Shown piece after piece: positions 13,704 through 34,428 of a DNA stretch of 34,582 nt. The DNA lies in the IMG/VR virus record IMGVR_UViG_3300025120_014818, positions 1 to 34,582 of that record. One strand, given 5' to 3'. The position numbers and the translations under genes were made by a program. The stretch comes from a virus. Every line of letters begins with the position of its first letter. The first letter of the stretch is position 1. The notes beneath the pieces were generated by a model. It searched no databases and was not told where the DNA came from. It saw only the letters and a program-made list of their open reading frames with translations.

Positions 13704-13891
13704 TGACTAAAAATTTTGATGCAGTTATCAGGAGATATGCACAAAAATATGGTATAAGTTTTCGTGATGCTGCAAGTATGTTAGGTAAACGAAATGCTAA
13801 AGCAAAAAAGCCAATCAAACCTAAAAAGCCTGTTCAAACTAATTTAGATTTTTTTGATCCACCTACACCTACTTATGGTACTGGTATTTAA
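13703..13891 (+). CDS. small basic late protein (62 aa)
   Basis: A 62-residue protein: an N-terminal helical part (NFDAVIRRYAQKYGISFRDA) that reads like a small DNA-binding helix pair, then a Lys/Pro-rich linker (residues about 30-43) and a QTNLDFFDPP tail. It is coupled to the acidic protein upstream by a TAATG junction, so an acidic/basic pair is made from one late message. Its stop overlaps the convergent glycosyltransferase stop by four bases. No family is recognised. Confidence 0.7.
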   Translation: MTKNFDAVIRRYAQKYGISFRDAASMLGKRNAKAKKPIKPKKPVQTNLDFFDPPTPTYGTGI

Positions 13892-15093
13892 TTATATCTA
13901 CTTAGATTAATTCTATTAATATCACCAACATTATATTGATATAATTCCATATAACAATCTATATTTTTATCGTCTTCTAACCACCTTGTCTCAGCGTATT
14001 GACGACCTTTTTTACATAAAGCTTTATACCGTTTTCTATCATTTAAAGTTCTGTCAATTTGATCTATCATCTCATCACCTGTTTTAAATTTAATAGGTGC
14101 ATTTTCATATGTACATAAATCTTGACATGCAATTGGTATTCCAAGTGCACTAGCTTCTATATATTTCAAATCAGATTTTGAACGGTTAAATATATTATCT
14201 TGTAAAGGTGCAACCATCATGTTAACGTTTAAATCATATAGACCTTTACCATATTCGAATAATCTTCTCCATGGATGAAACTCAACTTTACCAGATCTTA
14301 CTAAATCCATTAATGGTATAGGATGAGCTCCCATAAACACCCATTGATATTTATCAACAGTTCTTCTTATAACATCATTAACGTGATGGAAATCATCCTT
14401 GTATTTAACTCTTTGATCAACATCAAAATGAGCCCCAGAACCAGCATATAAAATTCTTGGCTTACGTTTATTTATTTCTAAACTTTCCATTGTTCTATTA
14501 TGGTTATAATGATTGCCTATCCAAAATTTAGGCATAAAATTAGGTATTACTGTAACGTTATTATTACCGGTTTTTTCCTTATAATAATCCCTCATAAATG
14601 GGCATGTAACTGTCATTTCATCGCACATTGACATCATTTCTTGTGCTGATTTTCTTATCGCAGGGTCTTCAAATGCTGTTTTATATTTGTTATAATCTGG
14701 TATATCTTCTTTAAAACAAATATCATCAATTTCATATATTAATCTTATATTATGCTTATCTGCTATTTGTCTAAGCATTTTAACAAATTCTAATTGATGA
14801 GGGGTAGCCTGTCTTTGTATTCTTATACCCTTACAACCACCGTAATATCTTTCGTCTAAATTCATTACTGTAGATCCATGAACTACAGCTTTACTATGAG
14901 CATTCATAATTTGTTCTGGCCATATCATTCTCCAATGACCACAACCAGAATAATCAGCATAATAATTTAAAAATCTAGGTAAATTTTGCTCTGGCGGTTG
15001 ATCCGGCTGTTGTTGTTGCTCTTGCTGTAAATTATTAACAATATTAAACGGTGTATTACCGTTAAACGGCATTTTATTTGGTTGGACAAGCAT
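13888..15093 (-). CDS. GT-B glycosyltransferase (GT4-like)
   Basis: A 401-residue glycosyltransferase of the two-Rossmann-domain type. The N-terminal domain includes YSGCGHWRMIWP and IRLIYEIDDICF (a phage variant of the donor/acceptor region). The C-terminal domain has KPRILYAGSGAHF, YQWVFMGAHP, APLQDNIFNRSKSDLKYIE and EASALGIPIACQD, the typical nucleotide-sugar site with its Glu. The first 35 residues are Gln/Pro-rich and look disordered, possibly a linker or tether. Unlike the adjacent gp46 operon it has a late-type box five bases before its ATG, suggesting action during virion assembly or on phage structures. The acceptor is unknown. Confidence 0.85.
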   Translation of the reverse strand: MLVQPNKMPFNGNTPFNIVNNLQQEQQQQPDQPPEQNLPRFLNYYADYSGCGHWRMIWPEQIMNAHSKAVVHGSTVMNLDERYYGGCKGIRIQRQATPHQLEFVKMLRQIADKHNIRLIYEIDDICFKEDIPDYNKYKTAFEDPAIRKSAQEMMSMCDEMTVTCPFMRDYYKEKTGNNNVTVIPNFMPKFWIGNHYNHNRTMESLEINKRKPRILYAGSGAHFDVDQRVKYKDDFHHVNDVIRRTVDKYQWVFMGAHPIPLMDLVRSGKVEFHPWRRLFEYGKGLYDLNVNMMVAPLQDNIFNRSKSDLKYIEASALGIPIACQDLCTYENAPIKFKTGDEMIDQIDRTLNDRKRYKALCKKGRQYAETRWLEDDKNIDCYMELYQYNVGDINRINLSRYN

Positions 15094-26062: not shown

Positions 26063-26401
26063 ATGACATTTGATAATATTGTAAGTAAATTGCTTAATGA
26101 ATATGGTTCTGTAATATCTTCATCTGAAGATGCTGAATATAGGGGTAGAAAAGTATCTTTAAATAAACCTACTAGAGGTGATGTAAAAAAATTTAAAGTA
26201 TATGTTAAAGACCCTAAATCTGGTAATGTGAGAAAAGTTAATTTTGGACATGGAGGTACTTCAGCTAAAAGGCGTGGTGAAAAAACAATGAAAATCCGTA
26301 AAAGTAACCCTAAAGCCCGTAAATCTTTTAGAGCTCGTCATAATTGTGATAACCCTGGACCTAAAACTAAAGCAAGATATTGGTCATGTCGCAAGTGGTA
26401 A
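26063..26401 (+). CDS. small basic late protein with conserved Cys/Arg C-terminus
   Basis: A 112-residue basic protein. After an amphipathic N-terminus (MTFDNIVSKLLNEYGS) and an EDAE segment, it has KKFKVYVKDPKSGNVRKVNFGHGG and ends ARHNCDNPGPKTKARYWSCRKW. I recall this C-terminal block (RKSFRARHNC, PGPKTKARYWSC) from many T4-like marine phage proteins. Two Cys and many Arg/Lys suggest nucleic-acid contact. It is the first of four consecutive small basic genes under late promoters. The function of the block is not known to me. Confidence 0.78.
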   Translation: MTFDNIVSKLLNEYGSVISSSEDAEYRGRKVSLNKPTRGDVKKFKVYVKDPKSGNVRKVNFGHGGTSAKRRGEKTMKIRKSNPKARKSFRARHNCDNPGPKTKARYWSCRKW

Positions 26402-26402
26402 C

Positions 26403-26415
26403 ATTAAATAATAAT
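26403..26415 (+). promoter_or_regulatory. T4-type late promoter
   Basis: ATTAAATA at 26403-26410, five bases (ATAAT), then ATG at 26416. This fixes the start of the downstream gene at 26416 rather than the upstream in-frame ATG at 26380. Confidence 0.7.
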
Positions 26416-26748
26416 ATGATAGAATCTTTTAAATTTTTTACCGAATCATCTAATAAGGCTATTGAAGATCTTAAAAAAATGATTCAAAACCCAGATCCAG
26501 AAAGAGTTAAAATGTATGGTGGTACTAGCTATGTAGATATGCTTCAACTTAAGTTAAATAGAATGCTTAAAGTTGAAGCATTAAAAGATCATTTAAGAAA
26601 ATCTAAAATGAGCGGTTATTATAAACATGAGGATGCTGAAGATCGTTGTAAGAGAAAAGCTGATAGCGTATATGGTAAAAAAACTTCAGCATATAAATCC
26701 GGTGCAATAGTAAGATGTCGTAAAGGTAAAATCTGGAAGAAAAAATGA
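26416..26748 (+). CDS. small basic late protein with KSGAIVRCRKGKIWK tail
   Basis: A 110-residue protein from the ATG at 26416 (MIESFKFFTESS). An in-frame ATG at 26380 would start inside the previous gene and upstream of the late box, so I reject it. The N-terminus resembles a capsid-targeting segment, with FTE-S as a relaxed cleavage site. The middle is helical (YVDMLQLKLNRMLKVEALKD). The C-terminus has EDAEDRCKRKA and KSGAIVRCRKGKIWKKK, a basic Cys-containing tail I recall from other T4-like phages. It overlaps the next gene by four bases. Probably packaged with DNA; inference. Confidence 0.75.
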   Translation: MIESFKFFTESSNKAIEDLKKMIQNPDPERVKMYGGTSYVDMLQLKLNRMLKVEALKDHLRKSKMSGYYKHEDAEDRCKRKADSVYGKKTSAYKSGAIVRCRKGKIWKKK

Positions 26749-26903
26749 ATAAATTTGATACAATTTTAGAAGGTCTTTGGGCTAATATTAATAAAAAGAA
26801 AAAATCTGGTCGTAAATCTGCTAAAAAAGGTAGTAAAGCATATAAAGCTGCTAAAAAAGCTGGTGATAAGTTACATGCATCTAAAGAAGCAAAAGGAATG
26901 TAA
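26745..26903 (+). CDS. tiny Lys/Ala-rich histone-like late protein (52 aa)
   Basis: An uninterrupted frame from ATG 26745 to TAA 26903 encodes 52 residues. It is joined to its neighbours by ATGA and TAATG overlaps, which strongly supports it as real. The N-terminus MNKFDTILE-G fits the strict gp21-type cleavage rule (I-x-E before G). The rest is a Lys/Ala/Gly-rich string (such as KKGSKAYKAAKKAGDK) like histone H1 tails, so DNA condensation in the head is the natural guess. Confidence 0.75.
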   Translation: MNKFDTILEGLWANINKKKKSGRKSAKKGSKAYKAAKKAGDKLHASKEAKGM

Positions 26904-27178
26904 TGAATTTCAATGAACTATATGAATTTTATGTTAATGAAGCTAGTGATAATCTACATCAATGGTTTAAACGTGGAGGTAAAGATCCTAAAACAGGTAA
27001 AAAATTTAGTGGGTGGATAAATTGTAAGACTGGGGGACCTTGCGGTCGTAAAAGTAAAAAATCTGGCGGTAGTTACCCAGCTTGTAGACCAACTAAAGCA
27101 GCATGTAAAAAAATAAAAGGTAAAATGTATAAGAAAAAAAGTTCAAAACGCATTAATTGGAAGAAAAATAAAAAATAA
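26903..27178 (+). CDS. small basic Cys-rich late protein, DUF5872-like
   Basis: A 91-residue protein. The N-terminus MNFNELYEFYVNE-A looks like a capsid-targeting signal with a relaxed cleavage site. The body has LHQWFKRGGKDPKTGKKF, then GWINCKTGGPCGRK and YPACRPTKAACKK: four cysteines in a pattern typical of the DUF5872-type proteins, perhaps a metal or disulfide knot. The C-terminus is Lys-rich. It shares one base with the preceding stop. Basic charge and position suggest an internal DNA-binding virion protein. Confidence 0.78.
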   Translation: MNFNELYEFYVNEASDNLHQWFKRGGKDPKTGKKFSGWINCKTGGPCGRKSKKSGGSYPACRPTKAACKKIKGKMYKKKSSKRINWKKNKK

Positions 27179-27190: not shown

Positions 27191-27895
27191 ATGGCAATTA
27201 CTGATACAACAGCTCCGAAAAATATACCATCTACTGGTGCATTAGGCATTGGTTCTACTGCAGGGGTAGATAGAAGTATAAATCTTGTTAGAAATATAAA
27301 ACGAACTACTACTGCAACATCAGAAGGAAGTATGGATAGATTAAGAAATTGGTTTAATGATTATGTAGGTACACCAGGAGGTTTTACAGCTCTATCAGGT
27401 AGTGAATCAATAGCATTAAGTCAGTGGAGAGGTGCTAGAATAACTGGATTTAGTGTACAAGCACGTAATGAAACATCTAATCCAGGTTATGATAATAATA
27501 ACGATGGTAGATTAACATGCCAAGGCTTTTTTGATGATAAAACATCTACTAAATTTAAATTAGTAAGAAGCAGTTATAATAGTACCAAAACTGCACAACA
27601 TGGAAATGCTATAACGTTTACCGGTATCGATGGAGATTCTTCTGGTGAAATGACTTTAACTATTACAAATTCATTAGATAATGAAGCTACTATGTTATTT
27701 AAACCGAAAAGAAGCGGTACATCTTATATGAAAAGTACCACTACAGTTGGTAGATTGAGCTCTAGTGATGGTGTTCAACAGTATAATTTTAGCAGTACTG
27801 CTGAAGGTGGTTTAAGTAATACTATGTATTTTACTTTTGGTTTACAAGCTATGAGTGCAGATAGAGTTTATGGAGCTGGTTACACATACCCATAA
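27191..27895 (+). CDS. putative virion structural protein, beta-rich
   Basis: A 234-residue protein poor in charge and rich in Ser, Thr and Gly, with alternating hydrophobic residues throughout, unlike its basic neighbours. The N-terminal MAITDTTAPKNIPSTGALG and the SLDNEATMLFKPKRSGTSY and TYPgenerally beta-type C-terminal region suggest a tail, neck or capsid-surface protein. It has a single Cys. It has its own late promoter and is followed by an inverted repeat and the promoter of the seven-gene operon. I do not recognise the family; it is a candidate target for modification by that operon. Confidence 0.7.
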   Translation: MAITDTTAPKNIPSTGALGIGSTAGVDRSINLVRNIKRTTTATSEGSMDRLRNWFNDYVGTPGGFTALSGSESIALSQWRGARITGFSVQARNETSNPGYDNNNDGRLTCQGFFDDKTSTKFKLVRSSYNSTKTAQHGNAITFTGIDGDSSGEMTLTITNSLDNEATMLFKPKRSGTSYMKSTTTVGRLSSSDGVQQYNFSSTAEGGLSNTMYFTFGLQAMSADRVYGAGYTYP

Positions 27896-27922: not shown

Positions 27923-27935
27923 CATAAATATATCT
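27923..27935 (+). promoter_or_regulatory. T4-type late promoter of the seven-gene operon
   Basis: CATAAATA at 27923-27930 (one mismatch to TATAAATA), five bases (TATCT), then ATG at 27936. No further late box was seen until 33809, so it should drive all seven genes. Confidence 0.7.
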
Positions 27936-28826
27936 ATGAGTTACTTCATAGATGAGTTGAAAGACCAGTTAAGTAAATATATAGTTGAGTTAACAATTAA
28001 CGAACAACGTTATCTTTATACAACTAAAGAAGAATATATAGGCGTTACTTTAACTAAAAATAGTGTATATAACTATTATTCAAAAAAAGTGGAATTATTA
28101 AATTATAATGAAGTGTCTTCATGTGGATATAATGGCAATGATGAAACTAATAAAGATTTAGCTTTAAAAAGATTAGAGGAAATAAATGAAGATTTATCAG
28201 ATTGTAGTTATGAGTTTGAAACTGAAAAAAATATTAAAAAATTTTATTTTAATGAATATGTAGATAGAAAAGAATTTTTATTATGTAAATTTTTTGATTT
28301 TAGTATTGATTTGGTAAATTTAGCTGAAGATAAAATACCTAATGATAAGAAAAAATATGTTTTTGATGTTTTTAAAAAACATATTAATGAAAGTATAGAC
28401 ATAGCTTTAGAAGAGCTTAATGAATTTAAAAATGAAGTTGAAGATAATGATATTGAAGATATTGATTCAATAATAGAAATTTTTAATGATACAGCTAAAG
28501 AAATAAATTTTGAAGGTATAGAAACTTTTACCGATTTATTTAATTACTGGCCTCCTTTACTTTTACCTGCACCGAATATCATATATGATAATATGTCAAA
28601 TATTTCAACATTTAAACAATTTGTAGATACAAGTTTATATGAAATGAATCAAAATAATTCTAAAAATAATCCTGGTAAAAATGTTAAAACTATCGATGTT
28701 ATTAAAAATATAAATGAGAATGATAAATTCCATATTATAGATATGTTAGAAGACTATTCCCTTAAAAATAATAATAAAAATTTTATTTCAATGAATAAAG
28801 TAAAAGAATTATTCAACAAAAAATAA
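27936..28826 (+). CDS. hypothetical acidic protein, first gene of the radical SAM/glycan operon
   Basis: A 296-residue acidic, largely helical protein with no signal peptide. The most distinctive segment is FNYWPPLLLPAPNIIYD (about 203-219), a Pro-rich hydrophobic block in an otherwise polar protein. After it comes STFKQFVDTSLYEMNQ, which looks amphipathic. It is separated from the first radical SAM gene by two bases. I do not recognise it. As the operon leader it could be a substrate, a carrier or a scaffold for the enzymes that follow. Confidence 0.7.
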   Translation: MSYFIDELKDQLSKYIVELTINEQRYLYTTKEEYIGVTLTKNSVYNYYSKKVELLNYNEVSSCGYNGNDETNKDLALKRLEEINEDLSDCSYEFETEKNIKKFYFNEYVDRKEFLLCKFFDFSIDLVNLAEDKIPNDKKKYVFDVFKKHINESIDIALEELNEFKNEVEDNDIEDIDSIIEIFNDTAKEINFEGIETFTDLFNYWPPLLLPAPNIIYDNMSNISTFKQFVDTSLYEMNQNNSKNNPGKNVKTIDVIKNINENDKFHIIDMLEDYSLKNNNKNFISMNKVKELFNKK

Positions 28827-28828
28827 TC

Positions 28829-29875
28829 ATGGATATAAATTCAGTAAGTTTAGTTAATATTAAGAAAGATTATATAACTAAAAGAAACAATAGAGCTAAA
28901 TTAGATACAGGATTTCATTGTAACTATAAGTGTGAATTTTGTTATTATATAAATAACTTGCATCTTAAAACATCGTTTGAAGAAGTAAAAAGACGTATAG
29001 ATAGAATACACGGTTATGGTATAGCTCAGATTGATATGTCAGGTGGTGAAAGTTCTATCCATAAAGATTGGTTTAAAATTTTAGAATACTGTAAAGAAAG
29101 ATTTGAAAATGTAAGTTGTTTAAGTAACGGTTCAGTTTTTTCTAATGAAAAATTTTTAAAAAAATCAAAAGATCATGGACTAGATGAAATATTATTTAGC
29201 TTACATGGATATGATGAAAAAAGTCACGATGAAATTGTAGGTAAAAAAAGAGCTTGGGTTAAAATAAGAAAAGCAATAGATCTTTGCAAAAAGCATGATA
29301 TAAAAGTAAGAATTAACTGCACAGTTTATCAAAAGAATTATAAAAATTTAGTATCATATGCTAATATTATAAAAGAAATTAAACCTTTTGAAGTAAATTT
29401 TTTAACTTTAAATTATTGGGATGATAGTAAACAGTTTGAACCGATTGATGATTATAGAAAATTAACTGACAATATTAAAAAATGTATTGATTTAATAGTT
29501 AATGATACAAAATATATAAACGTTAGATATACACCTTATTGTTTTATGGAAGGTTACGAAAAATATGTTTGTAATCAGTTTCAACATATATATGATATAT
29601 ATGATTGGAATAAAGAATTTTACGAACATGCTGGTGTAAACGAAACTATAGATATTTCAAAAAAATATAATCATAATGAAAAAATTGATATGGCTTTTAA
29701 AGCAGCTGGTAAGGATAGAATACAGGATTATAAAAAACCTCTTAAGTGTTTTAAATGTAAATTTTTTTATATATGCGATGGTATTGAAAAGCCATTAAAC
29801 ATGGATGTTTACCCAGTAAAGGGTAAGAAAATTACTGAAGTAAATCATTTCAGAAAAGATTTCTATGAAAAATAA
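28829..29875 (+). CDS. radical SAM enzyme with auxiliary Cys cluster
   Basis: A 348-residue radical SAM protein. The cluster-binding CNYKCEFC has Cys31, Cys35 and Cys38 (CX3CX2C), and SGGESS at 71-76 is the SAM-binding GGE motif. The core is TIM-barrel-like (LSNGS, then DEILFSLHGYDEKSHDEI). A C-terminal CFKCKFFYICDG, with Cys307, 310 and 316, plus Cys residues in the YCFMEGYEKYVC stretch, suggests an auxiliary Fe-S cluster of the SPASM/twitch type, often found in enzymes acting on peptides or sugars. It overlaps the next gene by 11 bases. Not QueE: too long and with the wrong C-terminal region. Confidence 0.86.
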   Translation: MDINSVSLVNIKKDYITKRNNRAKLDTGFHCNYKCEFCYYINNLHLKTSFEEVKRRIDRIHGYGIAQIDMSGGESSIHKDWFKILEYCKERFENVSCLSNGSVFSNEKFLKKSKDHGLDEILFSLHGYDEKSHDEIVGKKRAWVKIRKAIDLCKKHDIKVRINCTVYQKNYKNLVSYANIIKEIKPFEVNFLTLNYWDDSKQFEPIDDYRKLTDNIKKCIDLIVNDTKYINVRYTPYCFMEGYEKYVCNQFQHIYDIYDWNKEFYEHAGVNETIDISKKYNHNEKIDMAFKAAGKDRIQDYKKPLKCFKCKFFYICDGIEKPLNMDVYPVKGKKITEVNHFRKDFYEK

Positions 29876-30824
29876 TATAGTTTTAGATAAATCATTTGAT
29901 CTTTATCTTACTATGGCTTGGCCTCATGATAATGATCATGGTATATGTGGTCATGTTTTTGAAATTATTGATTACTATCTATTTTTAAGAAATAAGCTTA
30001 AAGTAGGTATCTTTATAGGGGAAAATATGGATTGGTCTACATTAGAAAAAGCTATTAGAAAAAAATACGATATAACTAATGAAATTATAAATGAGATTAA
30101 AAATAATACTACATTTAAATTAAGACCAAAAATAGTAAAAGGTAAAAATATTTTAATAGTTGACGGAGGTATAAAAGGTTGTTTGTGTTGGGGTGGAGTA
30201 AAGTTAATTTTTAAAAATATATTTAATTTTAGATGTGATTATCTTGATACTCATCACGATTTACAATATAAAAATTTAAAAGTATTACAAGATTTGAGAG
30301 TTTATGATGATGGAGATAACGATATAGCTATTAACTATATAAAAAAAATTAATTTTAAATATTATAAAAAAATTAAAAAGGTAAAAACTAATACAGCTTT
30401 AATTTATGCAACTAAAAATGAAAGGTCTTTAACTAAAGAACAAATAGATGATATAATAAGCAAATACAATTTTAAAAAATATTTAATAATAACTAGCAAT
30501 CCGGAAGAGTATAAAAATGAATTTAAAGATTATAAAAATTTAATTTTCCCTAAAATGCCAGTTGATAATATTTTTGAAAAATTTGATACATTTATATACA
30601 CACCTATAGGTAGATGTTTTGATTGTAGTCCTAGATTCATTGTCGAATGTAAACATTATAATAAAGATGTAATTTATGATAATATAGATGATGAATATTT
30701 AAATAAAGATACTGGTTTAAAGTATAGAAAATATGATATAGAAAATAATTTATCAAGTCTTTACTTACAGGAAGATGATAATATAATAGATATAATAAAT
30801 GAAACAATCAATAAAAAGTTTTGA
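29865..30824 (+). CDS. hypothetical protein, possibly a GT-B glycosyltransferase
   Basis: A 319-residue protein with two apparent alpha/beta halves. The N-terminal half includes FDLYLTMAWPHDNDHGICGHVFEIIDYY and ILIVDGG. The C-terminal half has KKYLIITSNPEEY, FDTFIYTPIGRCFDCSPRFIVECKHYNKDVIYD, given in parts: the TPIGR loop and the Glu-Cys-X-His segment resemble the nucleotide-sugar site of GT-B enzymes. The similarity is of pattern only. It overlaps both radical SAM genes (11 and 26 bases). Co-occurrence with a deacetylase and a GT2 enzyme supports a glycan role. Confidence 0.6.
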   Translation: MKNNIVLDKSFDLYLTMAWPHDNDHGICGHVFEIIDYYLFLRNKLKVGIFIGENMDWSTLEKAIRKKYDITNEIINEIKNNTTFKLRPKIVKGKNILIVDGGIKGCLCWGGVKLIFKNIFNFRCDYLDTHHDLQYKNLKVLQDLRVYDDGDNDIAINYIKKINFKYYKKIKKVKTNTALIYATKNERSLTKEQIDDIISKYNFKKYLIITSNPEEYKNEFKDYKNLIFPKMPVDNIFEKFDTFIYTPIGRCFDCSPRFIVECKHYNKDVIYDNIDDEYLNKDTGLKYRKYDIENNLSSLYLQEDDNIIDIINETINKKF

Positions 30825-31848
30825 ATTATTAGAATCTAATGATGGTACATATCCTAATTTTGATTTAAAAATTATAATAAAACCATGTTTTAGATGTAAC
30901 CATAATTGTTGGTTTTGTCATGAATATGATAACAAATCTAAAATGTGGTCTAAAGAAGATTGTAATTTATTTTTAGAAAAAATCAAAAAAATACCATCAT
31001 ATTATAAAAAAATCTATTTATATTTTTACGGTGGTGAACCAACAATGAGTCCTGAATGGGAATATTTACATTATGAAATGGTAAAAATATTCAACGATAG
31101 AGAATTATTTGTACAAACTCAAACAAATATGAGTGTAAAAACTGATAGGTTAAATACATTTTTAGAAAATATTAATAAAATTAAATCAAATAATCATATA
31201 ATTGACATATGCTCTTCTTACCATTTAGGTAAACAAAAAGTTGAAAATTTTATTGAAAAAATGAAAGTATGCGATAAACATAACGCATTAGGTTTTTGTT
31301 TTTTTAGTACTGAAATGACTAAAGAAGAACAAATGATAGAAGAGTTTTATAAAATTGCAGATGTTTTTCCAGAAAAAATAAAACTAAGATTTACAGAAAT
31401 CACATTTACTAATGATAAAAAAGCTACTAACTGGTTACATACTGGTAAAAAAATAAGTGGTTACGAAAATTATTTTGATGATGAATATTTAGTAGGAGAA
31501 GATCATGCAAATGCTATGGAGTATAGGTATTTTATGAAGAAATATCCTGAATTTAAAAATTTTTTAGAAGATGGATGGAATTTTAAAATTAATGGTAAAA
31601 CTATAGTAAAATATACCGACGTAAAAAATCAACAAATGAATAAATTTAGATTTTTTAAATGTTCATGCGGTAAAAAACAACTAGTAATAGATCACAATTT
31701 AAAGGTAACTCATTGTAATGACGACTTTTATAATAATATAAAAATAAAAGATTTAAAAGATATAGATTTTGAAAGTTATTTAGCTAAAAATGCTATATGC
31801 GCTAACGTGAGATGTTCAGATGGATTGGAGTTTAAAAAATGGAAATAG
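30799..31848 (+). CDS. second radical SAM enzyme, SPASM-like C-terminus
   Basis: A 349-residue radical SAM protein only distantly related to the one two genes upstream. CNHNCWFC has Cys33, Cys37 and Cys40; Cys30 precedes it. FYGGEPT (GGE at 78-80) is the SAM motif. The C-terminus has a CSCGKKQLVIDHNLKVTHC stretch and CANVRC, the spacing expected of a SPASM-type domain with auxiliary Fe-S clusters (the C..G..L.I...L.V..C layout). Such enzymes commonly modify ribosomal peptides or proteins, and some act on sugars. The substrate is unknown. Coupled by 26- and 10-base overlaps to its neighbours. Confidence 0.85.
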   Translation: MKQSIKSFELLESNDGTYPNFDLKIIIKPCFRCNHNCWFCHEYDNKSKMWSKEDCNLFLEKIKKIPSYYKKIYLYFYGGEPTMSPEWEYLHYEMVKIFNDRELFVQTQTNMSVKTDRLNTFLENINKIKSNNHIIDICSSYHLGKQKVENFIEKMKVCDKHNALGFCFFSTEMTKEEQMIEEFYKIADVFPEKIKLRFTEITFTNDKKATNWLHTGKKISGYENYFDDEYLVGEDHANAMEYRYFMKKYPEFKNFLEDGWNFKINGKTIVKYTDVKNQQMNKFRFFKCSCGKKQLVIDHNLKVTHCNDDFYNNIKIKDLKDIDFESYLAKNAICANVRCSDGLEFKKWK

Positions 31849-32672
31849 ATTATGTTAAAAGAGAAAATTTAAAAATACATCTATCACTAAATAAATTAGG
31901 GTTTAAAAATTTTAAATTTATTGATAATTATGGTAACTACCCTTTTAAAAAGGATGATATTCATGAATATAATAAATTTGGGTTTATTCATAATGGTATA
32001 ACCTATTATTGCCTATCTATTAATTGGTTTAAAGACCAGTTTCATGATAGATTAGAAAATAAAGAAGTATTAGATGTTTTTAAATGTTTTAAAAAATTTA
32101 GTGATACTACTACATATTTTGAAGATTCATGTTATGATAATAATTTTTTTATTTTAAAAAAGAATAAAAAATATAAACCATGTAAAATAGAAGAATTAAA
32201 AAATAACAATTTTAAACATTTTTTAATTAAATTTTATAAATTTCATAAAAAATATAAACATGATAGTTATATATCAAGAAAAAAATGGGCAGCATTTTAT
32301 AAATTAATAAAACGTCATCAATATAAAAAAATCGAAATATTGAAATGTTTTAAACATATAGATAAAAAATTTGATCATTTAGGAGAAGATAAATATTATT
32401 CGTTTTTATATAGTCCTAATGATTTTTTATATGACGGTGAAAATTATAAAGTAGATCTCTTTTCTACCCATATAACGTATCATGATTATTTTAATTCCAA
32501 TTGTATTGCTATAATAGATAATACATCTACAGTAAATGATTTATTAGAATTCATAGAAAAGTATAAAGATAAAGTAAATTATTATATTAATAATAAAATA
32601 AATAAAAATGAAAAGTATATTTTATATATAGATAAAGAAATTTCCCATGAAACCGTTATTAATGATACATGA
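31839..32672 (+). CDS. hypothetical basic protein in the glycan operon
   Basis: A 277-residue protein very rich in Lys, Phe, Tyr and Asn, partly reflecting the extreme AT content here. FNSNCIAIIDNTSTVNDLLEFIEKY near the C-terminus looks like an alpha/beta element, and YKVDLFSTHITYHDYFNSN contains two His. I see no catalytic signature and no membrane segment. It overlaps the radical SAM gene by 10 bases and the deacetylase gene by 26. A role with its operon partners is inferred from linkage alone. Confidence 0.65.
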   Translation: MEIDYVKRENLKIHLSLNKLGFKNFKFIDNYGNYPFKKDDIHEYNKFGFIHNGITYYCLSINWFKDQFHDRLENKEVLDVFKCFKKFSDTTTYFEDSCYDNNFFILKKNKKYKPCKIEELKNNNFKHFLIKFYKFHKKYKHDSYISRKKWAAFYKLIKRHQYKKIEILKCFKHIDKKFDHLGEDKYYSFLYSPNDFLYDGENYKVDLFSTHITYHDYFNSNCIAIIDNTSTVNDLLEFIEKYKDKVNYYINNKINKNEKYILYIDKEISHETVINDT

Positions 32673-33177
32673 ATTTAAAGAAGAGTTTTTAGATCTTCCT
32701 TTAGAAAAATACATATTAACTTTTGATGACGGGTTATATACTCAATTTAAATTTATTAAAGAATTAAAAAAAATTAATACAGATAAATATTTTTTTATTA
32801 GTAGTAATATAGTTTGCCCTGAAAATATACATCAAGATAATTCTTTTATAGAATGTAGCGAAGCTCATAAAAAAGCTTTTAAAGGTAATTATGAAAACTA
32901 TATGAAATGGTCTCAAATTAAAAAAATTGATAATTTTAAAAAATGTAAAATAGGTTGTCATAGTCATTTTCATCATATAAAAACTGCTAATTGCGTAGAA
33001 TGTATAATTTTAGATAATAAATTAATGTTAAAAGAATTTAAAGAAAAAATAGGATATGTACCTGAAATATTTTGTTACCCTTACAATCATAAATCACAGT
33101 TATATGAGGAAATTTTATTTAAAAAAGGTTTTAATGAATTTTTTGGAGAAAAAAGAATAGATATATACAATATATGA
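32647..33177 (+). CDS. NodB-type polysaccharide deacetylase-like protein
   Basis: A 176-residue protein with the carbohydrate esterase 4 motifs: TFDDG at 25-29 (catalytic base Asp and metal Asp), HSHFH at 105-109 (metal-binding His pair) and FCYPYNH at 142-148 in place of the RxxPxG-type motif 3. There is no signal peptide, so it should act in the cytoplasm, removing N-acetyl groups from a sugar or glycan precursor. ATG 32647 is the listed start; ATG 32662 (MIHEFKEEF) is an alternative with a shorter overlap. It is short for the family, so the barrel is minimal. Confidence 0.8.
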   Translation: MKPLLMIHEFKEEFLDLPLEKYILTFDDGLYTQFKFIKELKKINTDKYFFISSNIVCPENIHQDNSFIECSEAHKKAFKGNYENYMKWSQIKKIDNFKKCKIGCHSHFHHIKTANCVECIILDNKLMLKEFKEKIGYVPEIFCYPYNHKSQLYEEILFKKGFNEFFGEKRIDIYNI

Positions 33178-33791
33178 AAATAGATGCAGTTACAGTTTCA
33201 ATAGATTATAGTGATTATTTAGAAAAAATAATTTCTAATAAAGAATTATTAGATAATTGGTTAATAGTTACTCATAAAGATGATAAAAAAACAATTAAAG
33301 TATGTAAAGATAATAAATTAAATTTTATATATAGTGAAAAAATTTATGAAAACGCAATATTTGCAAAAAGTAAAGCTATAAATGAAGGTTTAAATTATTT
33401 AAAACCTAATGATTGGATATTACAACTTGATAGTGATGCTAAACTACCATCTAATTTTAGGACTATAATAGATAAAAATGTAAAAGATAAAAGTATAATA
33501 TACGGTAGTAGGAGATATGATGAGATGGGTAATGACATTGGTATTGTTACAGGAATGCCTTATAAAGGAGCAGTTGGTTTTTTTCAATTATGGCATTCTT
33601 CTGAAAAAAACAGATATACTGAAACAGAACATATAAATGCTGAAGGAGATGTTGATCATGATAAATCTTTTAAAAATAGACATATATTACCTTTAAATAT
33701 TATAGATATACAAGATAAAAGAACTAATAAAAGAGTTAATTGGTATGGTAGAGGTATATTAGGCAAAACAAGACATAAATTTTATCAGTAG
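33174..33791 (+). CDS. GT-A glycosyltransferase family 2-like
   Basis: A 205-residue protein starting with a beta strand (MKIDAVTVSIDYSDYL). The strand-loop WLIVTHKDD, AKSKAINEGL, and WILQLDSDAKLP with the metal-binding DSD at 86-88 are typical of GT-A enzymes. The C-terminal VGFFQLWHSSE and RVNWYGRGI resemble a phage glycosyltransferase subfamily I recall. It has a four-base overlap with the deacetylase and is the last gene of the operon. It probably transfers a sugar to a phage-encoded or host glycan acceptor; the acceptor is unknown. Confidence 0.8.
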   Translation: MKIDAVTVSIDYSDYLEKIISNKELLDNWLIVTHKDDKKTIKVCKDNKLNFIYSEKIYENAIFAKSKAINEGLNYLKPNDWILQLDSDAKLPSNFRTIIDKNVKDKSIIYGSRRYDEMGNDIGIVTGMPYKGAVGFFQLWHSSEKNRYTETEHINAEGDVDHDKSFKNRHILPLNIIDIQDKRTNKRVNWYGRGILGKTRHKFYQ

Positions 33792-33821: not shown

Positions 33822-33998
33822 ATGGAAGATAATATTAATTCAATAGAAACACAATTTGAAATTTTTAACGAAAATGTTGCAAAATTTAATGAAAAAAATA
33901 ATGCTTCAGCTGGTACAAGAGCTAGAAAAGCATTATTAGAAATTACTAAAATTTCTAAAGAACTGAGAAAACAAATTCAAGAGAAGAAGAACAGTTAA
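33822..33998 (+). CDS. small histone H1-like protein (58 aa)
   Basis: An uninterrupted frame from ATG 33822 to TAA 33998 encodes 58 residues. An acidic N-terminal half (MEDNINSIETQFEIFNEN) precedes a basic helix with AGTRARKALLEITKISKELR. That block is typical of the small histone H1-like proteins found in marine phages, which probably contact DNA. The start follows a late-type box at the standard five-base spacing. Confidence 0.78.
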   Translation: MEDNINSIETQFEIFNENVAKFNEKNNASAGTRARKALLEITKISKELRKQIQEKKNS

Positions 33999-34001
33999 AC
34001 A

Positions 34002-34014
34002 TATAAATAATTAA
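34002..34014 (+). promoter_or_regulatory. T4-type late promoter with exact TATAAATA, GTG at predicted +1
   Basis: TATAAATA at 34002-34009, five bases (ATTAA), then GTG at 34015. An exact octamer at the standard spacing in front of a GTG supports both the promoter rule and the GTG start. Confidence 0.78.
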
Positions 34015-34428
34015 GTGCAAAGCTTTAAATTATTTTATGAAAAAACATTAGGTTTAATTGAAACAATCGATATTAATGGTATCGGTGAAGTTGAAAGCAA
34101 GGTAGATAGCGGTAACGGTGCATATAATGTATTGCATGGTATTAACATACAAGAATTACCAGATGGTAAAATATCATTCGATACTGTAAAGGATAAAAGT
34201 ATACAATTACCTGTTATTGAATATATTGATATTAATATAGGTTCTGGTAATATCGAAAAACGACCTGTTGTTGAATTTGATATTTTATTTGGTGATAAAA
34301 AACTTAATAATGAAAAATTTTCTATTGCTGATAGAACTGAAAATGAATATAAAATATTAATCGGTAAAGAATTTATTGAACGTATGGGAGGTTTAATTGA
34401 CGTTCGTAAAAAAAATAATTTAGACTAA
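34015..34428 (+). CDS. retropepsin-like aspartic protease (RimK-associated type)
   Basis: A 137-residue protein resembling the retropepsin-like family of RimK-linked putative proteases. VESKVDSGNGAYNVLHG has the catalytic-type Asp31 in DSGN (usual DTGA or DSGA). Two further features are RPVVEFDILFGD and the C-terminal EYKILIGKEFIERMGGLIDV, which matches the family LIGR-FL block. It would work as a dimer. The start is GTG at 34015, fixed by the late promoter. Late expression raises the possibility of a role in virion maturation. There is a strand-switching terminator right after it. Confidence 0.75.
   Translation: MQSFKLFYEKTLGLIETIDINGIGEVESKVDSGNGAYNVLHGINIQELPDGKISFDTVKDKSIQLPVIEYIDINIGSGNIEKRPVVEFDILFGDKKLNNEKFSIADRTENEYKILIGKEFIERMGGLIDVRKKNNLD

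Follow-up and report, generated by a model that had tools for sequence, protein, structure and literature searches.

A seven-gene late operon with two radical SAM enzymes beside a probable tail gene of a T4-like phage, and the modular island to which it belongs

Operon layout and late-promoter elements

The window, i.e. the whole stretch of DNA analysed here, comes from a virus record and is a fragment of 34.6 kb. Judged from its genes, the marine phage is a divergent T4-like one. Its DNA polymerase shares ~32% identity with those of cyanophages and other T4-like phages, the best matches being other T4-like marine phages, and UvsX, SbcC/SbcD-type and DnaB-type genes are also encoded. A separate glycosyltransferase gene (13888-15093, minus strand, phrog_7162) is found amid the replication genes.

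Seven genes, named g1 to g7, lie downstream of a gene called STRUCT (Table 1). Their tight packing between 27936 and 33791, part of the original prediction, was confirmed for all open reading frames: g1 and g2 are separated by 2 bp, and the following pairs overlap by 11 (g2/g3), 26 (g3/g4), 10 (g4/g5), 26 (g5/g6) and 4 bp (g6/g7). Small Lys/Arg/Cys-rich proteins, strongly conserved across phages, are encoded at 26380-27178, immediately before the hypervariable STRUCT gene.

Table 1. Features of the operon and its flanks, and window genes preceded by a late element.
Feature	Position	Strand	Description
STRUCT	27191..27895	+	Beta-rich probable tail/virion protein, own late-promoter element
CATAAATA	27923..27930	+	T4-type late-promoter element covering bases -13 to -6 relative to the g1 start codon
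g1	27936..28826	+	296 aa, WPPLLLPxP motif
g2	28829..29875	+	Radical SAM enzyme; motif for an auxiliary Fe-S cluster in the C-terminal part
g3	29865..30824	+	Glycosyltransferase-like protein of GT-B fold; FDCSPR motif invariant
g4	30799..31848	+	Second radical SAM enzyme, C-terminal auxiliary cysteines
g5	31839..32672	+	277 aa, orphan
g6	32647..33177	+	CE4/NodB-type de-N-acetylase
g7	33174..33791	+	Probable short GT-A (GT2-like) protein, DSD motif; weak assignment
Hc1-like protein and ATP-dependent zinc protease-like gene	33822..34428	+	Right flank, own late element each
Genes with a NNTAAATA-type element	6738, 13350, 20297, 20548, 21789, 26063	+	Late element
Further genes with a NNTAAATA-type element	27191, 27936, 33822, 34015	+	Late element
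Further gene with a NNTAAATA-type element	10108	-	Late element

The hexamer TAAATA, which forms the core of the late promoter element in T4, is present within 40 bases upstream of 10 of the 25 plus-strand genes of the window. Every one of these copies is placed exactly at -11 from the start codon, where ~0.2 genes overall would be expected by chance. Enrichment of TATAAATA across the window was considered as a signal and rejected: there is no overall enrichment, and it is the fixed position before the start that is significant. The T4-type late element NNTAAATA is found at a fixed distance of 13 bases before the start codons of eleven window genes; many other genes, mostly on the minus strand, have TATAAT near the start codon instead. 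If the T4 geometry holds, late messages would begin at the start codon, i.e. they would be leaderless.

Within the operon, the late element CATAAATA is found only before g1. None precedes g2 to g7, and the next ones downstream belong to the genes at 33822 and 34015. Because of this distribution, and as far as promoter sequences tell, we conclude that g1-g7 behave as one late unit, in line with the single shared late promoter that had been proposed.

The overall GC content of the seven genes is low (0.18-0.24), and a recent acquisition was considered. It was rejected, since their GC3 (0.08-0.14) is like that of the phage polymerase gene and equals that of the phage core genes; the low overall GC therefore comes from amino-acid composition. 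The same match in codon-position bias argues that g5 and g7 are real genes, despite having no homologues. By hydropathy analysis, all seven products lack a membrane segment.

Predicted enzymes and orphan proteins

Both g2 and g4 match the radical SAM family PF04055 in Pfam (E=8e-20 and 5e-10, respectively), and they also match phrog_27238 (E=2e-84) and phrog_24890 (E=2e-60). The C-terminal auxiliary cysteine motifs that had been noticed in the two proteins proved to be invariant among relatives: C238, C307, C310 and C316 of g2 in an alignment of 13 sequences, and C288, C306, C334 and C339 of g4 in an alignment of 10. These residues are consistent with one auxiliary Fe-S cluster in each enzyme. 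No NCBIfam equivalog scored above its cut-off for g2 or g4; MoaA, NirJ and HxsC identities were rejected on this ground, and so was viperin for g2 (NF038283, score 60.8 for a cut-off of 180).

The AlphaFold model of g3 (pLDDT 90, pTM 0.90) has GT-B glycosyltransferases as its best Foldseek matches, all of them distant (top E=2e-4). For g6, matches to Polysacc_deac_1 in Pfam (E=1e-6) and to phrog_26430 (E=5e-21) were obtained. The CE4 metal and catalytic residues D27, D28, H105 and H109 are invariant and the TFDDG and HSxxH motifs intact, which bears out the CE4-type deacetylase first suggested. The GT2 signal of g7 consists of PF13704 at E=0.05 and a DSD motif; g7 was not matched by the island GT2 profile, and a single-protein scan of IMG/VR yielded no relatives. 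Two glycosyltransferase-like proteins had been announced, one of them a GT2 enzyme ending the operon: the GT-B fold makes g3 firm, while g7 is a real gene whose assignment is weak.

The product of g1 has a beta-rich N-terminal part, a helical middle and a conserved WPPLLLPxP motif. Its AlphaFold model (pLDDT 76) had no PDB match at E<=0.001, so that structure-based assignment, the check suggested for the obscure genes, gave a fold for g3 and none for g1. Homologues of g1 occur in 14 IMG/VR contigs, all obtained by synteny and a profile, the single-protein IMG/VR scan having given nothing. Wherever the contig extends far enough, g1 sits between a tail-type gene and the radical SAM and glycosyltransferase genes. 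It has no detectable relation to the c7 family that occupies the equivalent slot. No relatives of g5 were found in Pfam, PHROG, NCBIfam or IMG/VR searches.

The island in related phages

Profile scans of IMG/VR detected 39 loci for g2 and 39 for g3. The g2-g3 core is shared by ~40 IMG/VR contigs and by Firehammervirus phages of Campylobacter; many uncultured phages of aquatic origin carry the island. A clear g2 is always accompanied by g3 on its contig, the single exception being a contig that begins 271 bases ahead of g2 (L045, a weak match, was left out of this count). Six contigs were found with g3 only: g2 is nearby in four, and L075 and L077 have other island genes instead. Co-occurrence of the seven families, the proposed search, thus holds for g2 and g3 in essentially all uncultured-phage contigs that are long enough; the Campylobacter homologues of g2, g3, g4 and g6 are scattered, although all present. 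The refuting condition named at the outset, scattered and independent genes in relatives, thus has a mixed outcome.

Fuller islands add 4 to 8 further radical SAM genes, GT2, a split transketolase, SDR epimerases, and PIG-L and NodB deacetylases, or alternatively an aminotransferase and an amidinotransferase, in a fairly fixed order. Gene maps of 41 loci show that in the marine phages nearest to the window the order reads STRUCT-g1-g2-(radical SAM)-g3-g4-GT2-radical SAM array, followed by the N and C halves of the transketolase, SDR, PIG-L and NodB. In a second module type, a DegT aminotransferase and the amidinotransferase replace the transketolase and GT2. Some islands also carry a UDP-glucose dehydrogenase, a longer, probably B12-binding radical SAM protein, or a tryptophan-halogenase-like flavoprotein, the latter found inside the radical SAM island at L023:19347-20615, and also in L034, L035, L021 and L017. 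With these enzyme names, which are supported by Pfam, GT2, transketolase, SDRs, PIG-L, NodB, UDP-glucose dehydrogenase, DegT aminotransferase and amidinotransferase make up a coherent sugar pathway.

One 185-kb contig, L006, shares the flanks of the window on both sides, with STRUCT-g1 to the left and the Hc1-like and zinc-protease-like genes following its larger island, and this island is ~11 kb long, compared to 6 kb in the window. We therefore see in the window a replaceable cassette in reduced form, the smallest observed for this widespread modular island. The only match in a cellular collection is an 8.4-kb contig with an L006-type island (L020, NZIV01000084.1, Neomarinimicrobiota MAG MED589), probably a phage contig binned with this MAG.

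The gene content of the relatives bears on two further possibilities. Radical SAM, PIG-L, DegT aminotransferase and amidinotransferase genes together recall aminoglycoside pathways, so a diffusible compound of this kind could be made in the infected cell and freed at lysis. We consider this very improbable: the minimal set of the window is devoid of both the aminotransferase and the amidinotransferase, no self-protection enzyme was recognised, and the anchoring to tail genes described below would be left unexplained. The enzymes could also hypermodify the bases of phage DNA, a process in which GT-B enzymes and radical SAM isomerases are known to take part. A thymidylate-synthase-type hydroxymethylase is, however, absent from 13 of the 14 island-bearing records, the 185-kb one among them, although most of the records are fragments. 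This absence weakens base hypermodification, for which late expression from the tail region would also be an unlikely setting, and we regard it as very improbable.

Hydropathy analysis of the 622 island open reading frames found a hydrophobic segment in 10, some of these being artefactual antisense frames, and no recognisable flippase, polymerase or membrane transferase. With almost no island protein having a membrane segment, no export route is visible. This speaks against a role in changing the polysaccharide of the host surface so as to shut out superinfecting phages. Such a pathway would normally need these proteins unless the host supplies them, and no ligase or initiating membrane transferase was seen among the 622 frames either. 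The late-type promoter and the linkage to tail-type proteins do not fit well with it either. The sugar enzymes do resemble O-antigen pathways, the export machinery of the host could still serve, and similar roles were proposed earlier for pelagimyophage glycosyltransferases (PMC7029224) and for the LPS gene clusters of cyanophage P-SSM2, thought to change the host surface (PMC2984593). On balance we hold the host-surface explanation to be quite unlikely.

Published modules resemble the island in several respects. Campylobacter phages CP220 and CPt10 carry 11-12 radical SAM proteins, with an interchangeable module of five radical SAM genes and an amidinotransferase for which a metabolic benefit and no function was proposed (Timms 2010, PMC2853527). 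Homologues of g2 (47% identity), g4 (36%), g3 (28-30%) and g6 (34%) occur in this group II (Firehammervirus) of Campylobacter phages, all four together in one phage, and the module lies after baseplate genes. There the homologues are dispersed over the genome, whereas the window has a single seven-gene late operon beside STRUCT, with two radical SAM genes instead of five and no amidinotransferase. The host recognition cluster of pelagimyophages is likewise a hypervariable island of T4-like marine phages with tail fibres and glycosyltransferases, and close relatives differ in it by gain and loss of radical SAM cassettes, published without a function (Zaragoza-Solas 2020, PMC7029224); its glycosyltransferases were read as modifiers of the host O-chain, unlike the virion reading favoured here. 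P-SSM2 also has sugar-enzyme clusters in a marine T4-like phage, with no radical SAM gene mentioned in the paper (PMC2984593). The statement that no phage system with this gene set had been described was thus too strong, since the first two of these modules were published, although without a function. In the open-access literature, we found no paper uniting these radical SAM modules into one tail-linked pathway. Neither VrlC nor gp14 was identified in the 34.6-kb window.

Linkage to tail genes and proposed role

Counting the window, 11 loci have a STRUCT homologue, which marks the left edge of the island. In L011, L013, L014 and L098 a tail-fibre gene with an S74 chaperone domain directly precedes STRUCT. 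STRUCT identity between phages is 17-39%, compared to 85-94% for its upstream neighbour (26903-27178), as expected for a surface-exposed, diversifying protein. No annotated match was found for STRUCT, and its virion role is a predicted one. The left edge of islands is typically tail-type, with either STRUCT and g1 or a Cys-rich S74 protein that has SPASM radical SAM genes as neighbours. In L094, the longest of three contigs that keep STRUCT and g1 (L094-L096), this pair precedes a different set of radical SAM and glycosyltransferase genes, which makes the tail anchor and the enzymes look like one functional unit. That set (L094:8001-16216) comprises three similar putative glycosyltransferases, named by sequence inspection alone, two radical SAM genes, an amidinotransferase and an SDR. 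A point against a tail-linked role is that the Campylobacter-phage homologues are dispersed, only some being near tail or baseplate genes. We consider STRUCT the probable target of the modification. The earlier idea that the 27191 product is a modified virion part gains from its anchoring to the island in relatives, the attachment itself being presumed.

The Cys-rich tail protein (L028:6904-7623, L042:5623-6306, L024:6138-6803 and others) has an invariant repeat, CICN..C.CN..C.C...C.CNY, before its S74 chaperone domain. In sister islands, a 76-aa gene and two radical SAM genes of SPASM type immediately precede its gene, and all 14 contigs that carry it also carry the g2/g3 island. It looks likely to be a radical-SAM-modified tail protein. 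Radical SAM enzymes with auxiliary clusters act in many cases on peptides and not on sugars, and both g2 and g4 have the cysteines for such clusters. The chief rival explanation is built on these observations: the radical SAM enzymes would modify amino acids of the tail protein directly, in a RiPP-like way that yields a thioether, an epimer or a cross-link, and glycosylation would come on top or be separate. Neither the Cys-rich protein nor the two SPASM genes, however, are present in the window or its close relatives. STRUCT has one cysteine and no detectable relation to the Cys-rich protein; a precursor peptide or Cys-rich target adjoining a maturase is present only in the sister islands and absent from the window operon, and the remaining island genes are sugar enzymes. 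For the window we find direct modification unlikely, though both activities may operate in one system.

Phage virion glycosylation relies on cytoplasmic glycosyltransferases, encoded near structural genes, that decorate capsid or tail proteins. The island appears to share this trait, since the genes for its GT-B protein and sugar enzymes are linked to STRUCT and to those for S74 tail fibres; to our knowledge, radical SAM tailoring enzymes are not part of the described systems. Our favoured reading, with a probability of about 0.5, is that of a late, tail-gene-linked glycosylation cassette making an unusual sugar in the cytoplasm and attaching it to the neighbouring tail protein. Cytoplasmic glycan synthesis for virion parts, which had been suggested at the outset, fits best because GT-B and NodB, together with PIG-L, SDR, transketolase and aminotransferase in relatives, are sugar chemistry, and no export proteins are seen; its product and target are the conditional part.

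The sequence itself supports the enzyme classes, joint transcription, anchoring and lack of export; we infer substrate, product, step order, attachment, target and benefit as follows. In the cytoplasm of the infected cell, g2 and g4 would use radical chemistry to remodel a sugar that is either nucleotide-activated or already attached to protein, and g6 would strip an N-acetyl group from it. The product would be transferred by g3 (GT-B), and probably by g7 (GT-A), to STRUCT or tail fibres before assembly, with g1, next to the tail protein gene, maybe acting as an adaptor or chaperone. The enzyme set is swapped between phages, which is expected if it makes a diversifying decoration of the surface, one that influences adsorption or escapes host or neutralising factors.

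More generally, and as a tentative proposal whose odds we put somewhat short of even, the islands could be a widespread, modular phage system in which radical SAM arrays build unusual sugars or cross-links on tail proteins, as a diversifying chemical code. If so, the code on the receptor-binding apparatus would change by swapping of enzyme cassettes and not by the protein alone, oxygen-sensitive radical enzymes would vary virion chemistry, with a bearing on host recognition, and the islands would offer new radical enzymes that modify sugars and peptides. Phage radical SAM genes, an unexplained oddity since 2010, now have a conserved pathway context and a tail-type anchor gene, and cultured Campylobacter phages offer targets for tests. 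CP220 has its g3 homologue beside another radical SAM gene and its NodB homologue beside PIG-L and epimerase genes; in CPt10, the g4 homologue opens the module directly after the baseplate lysozyme and PAAR genes.
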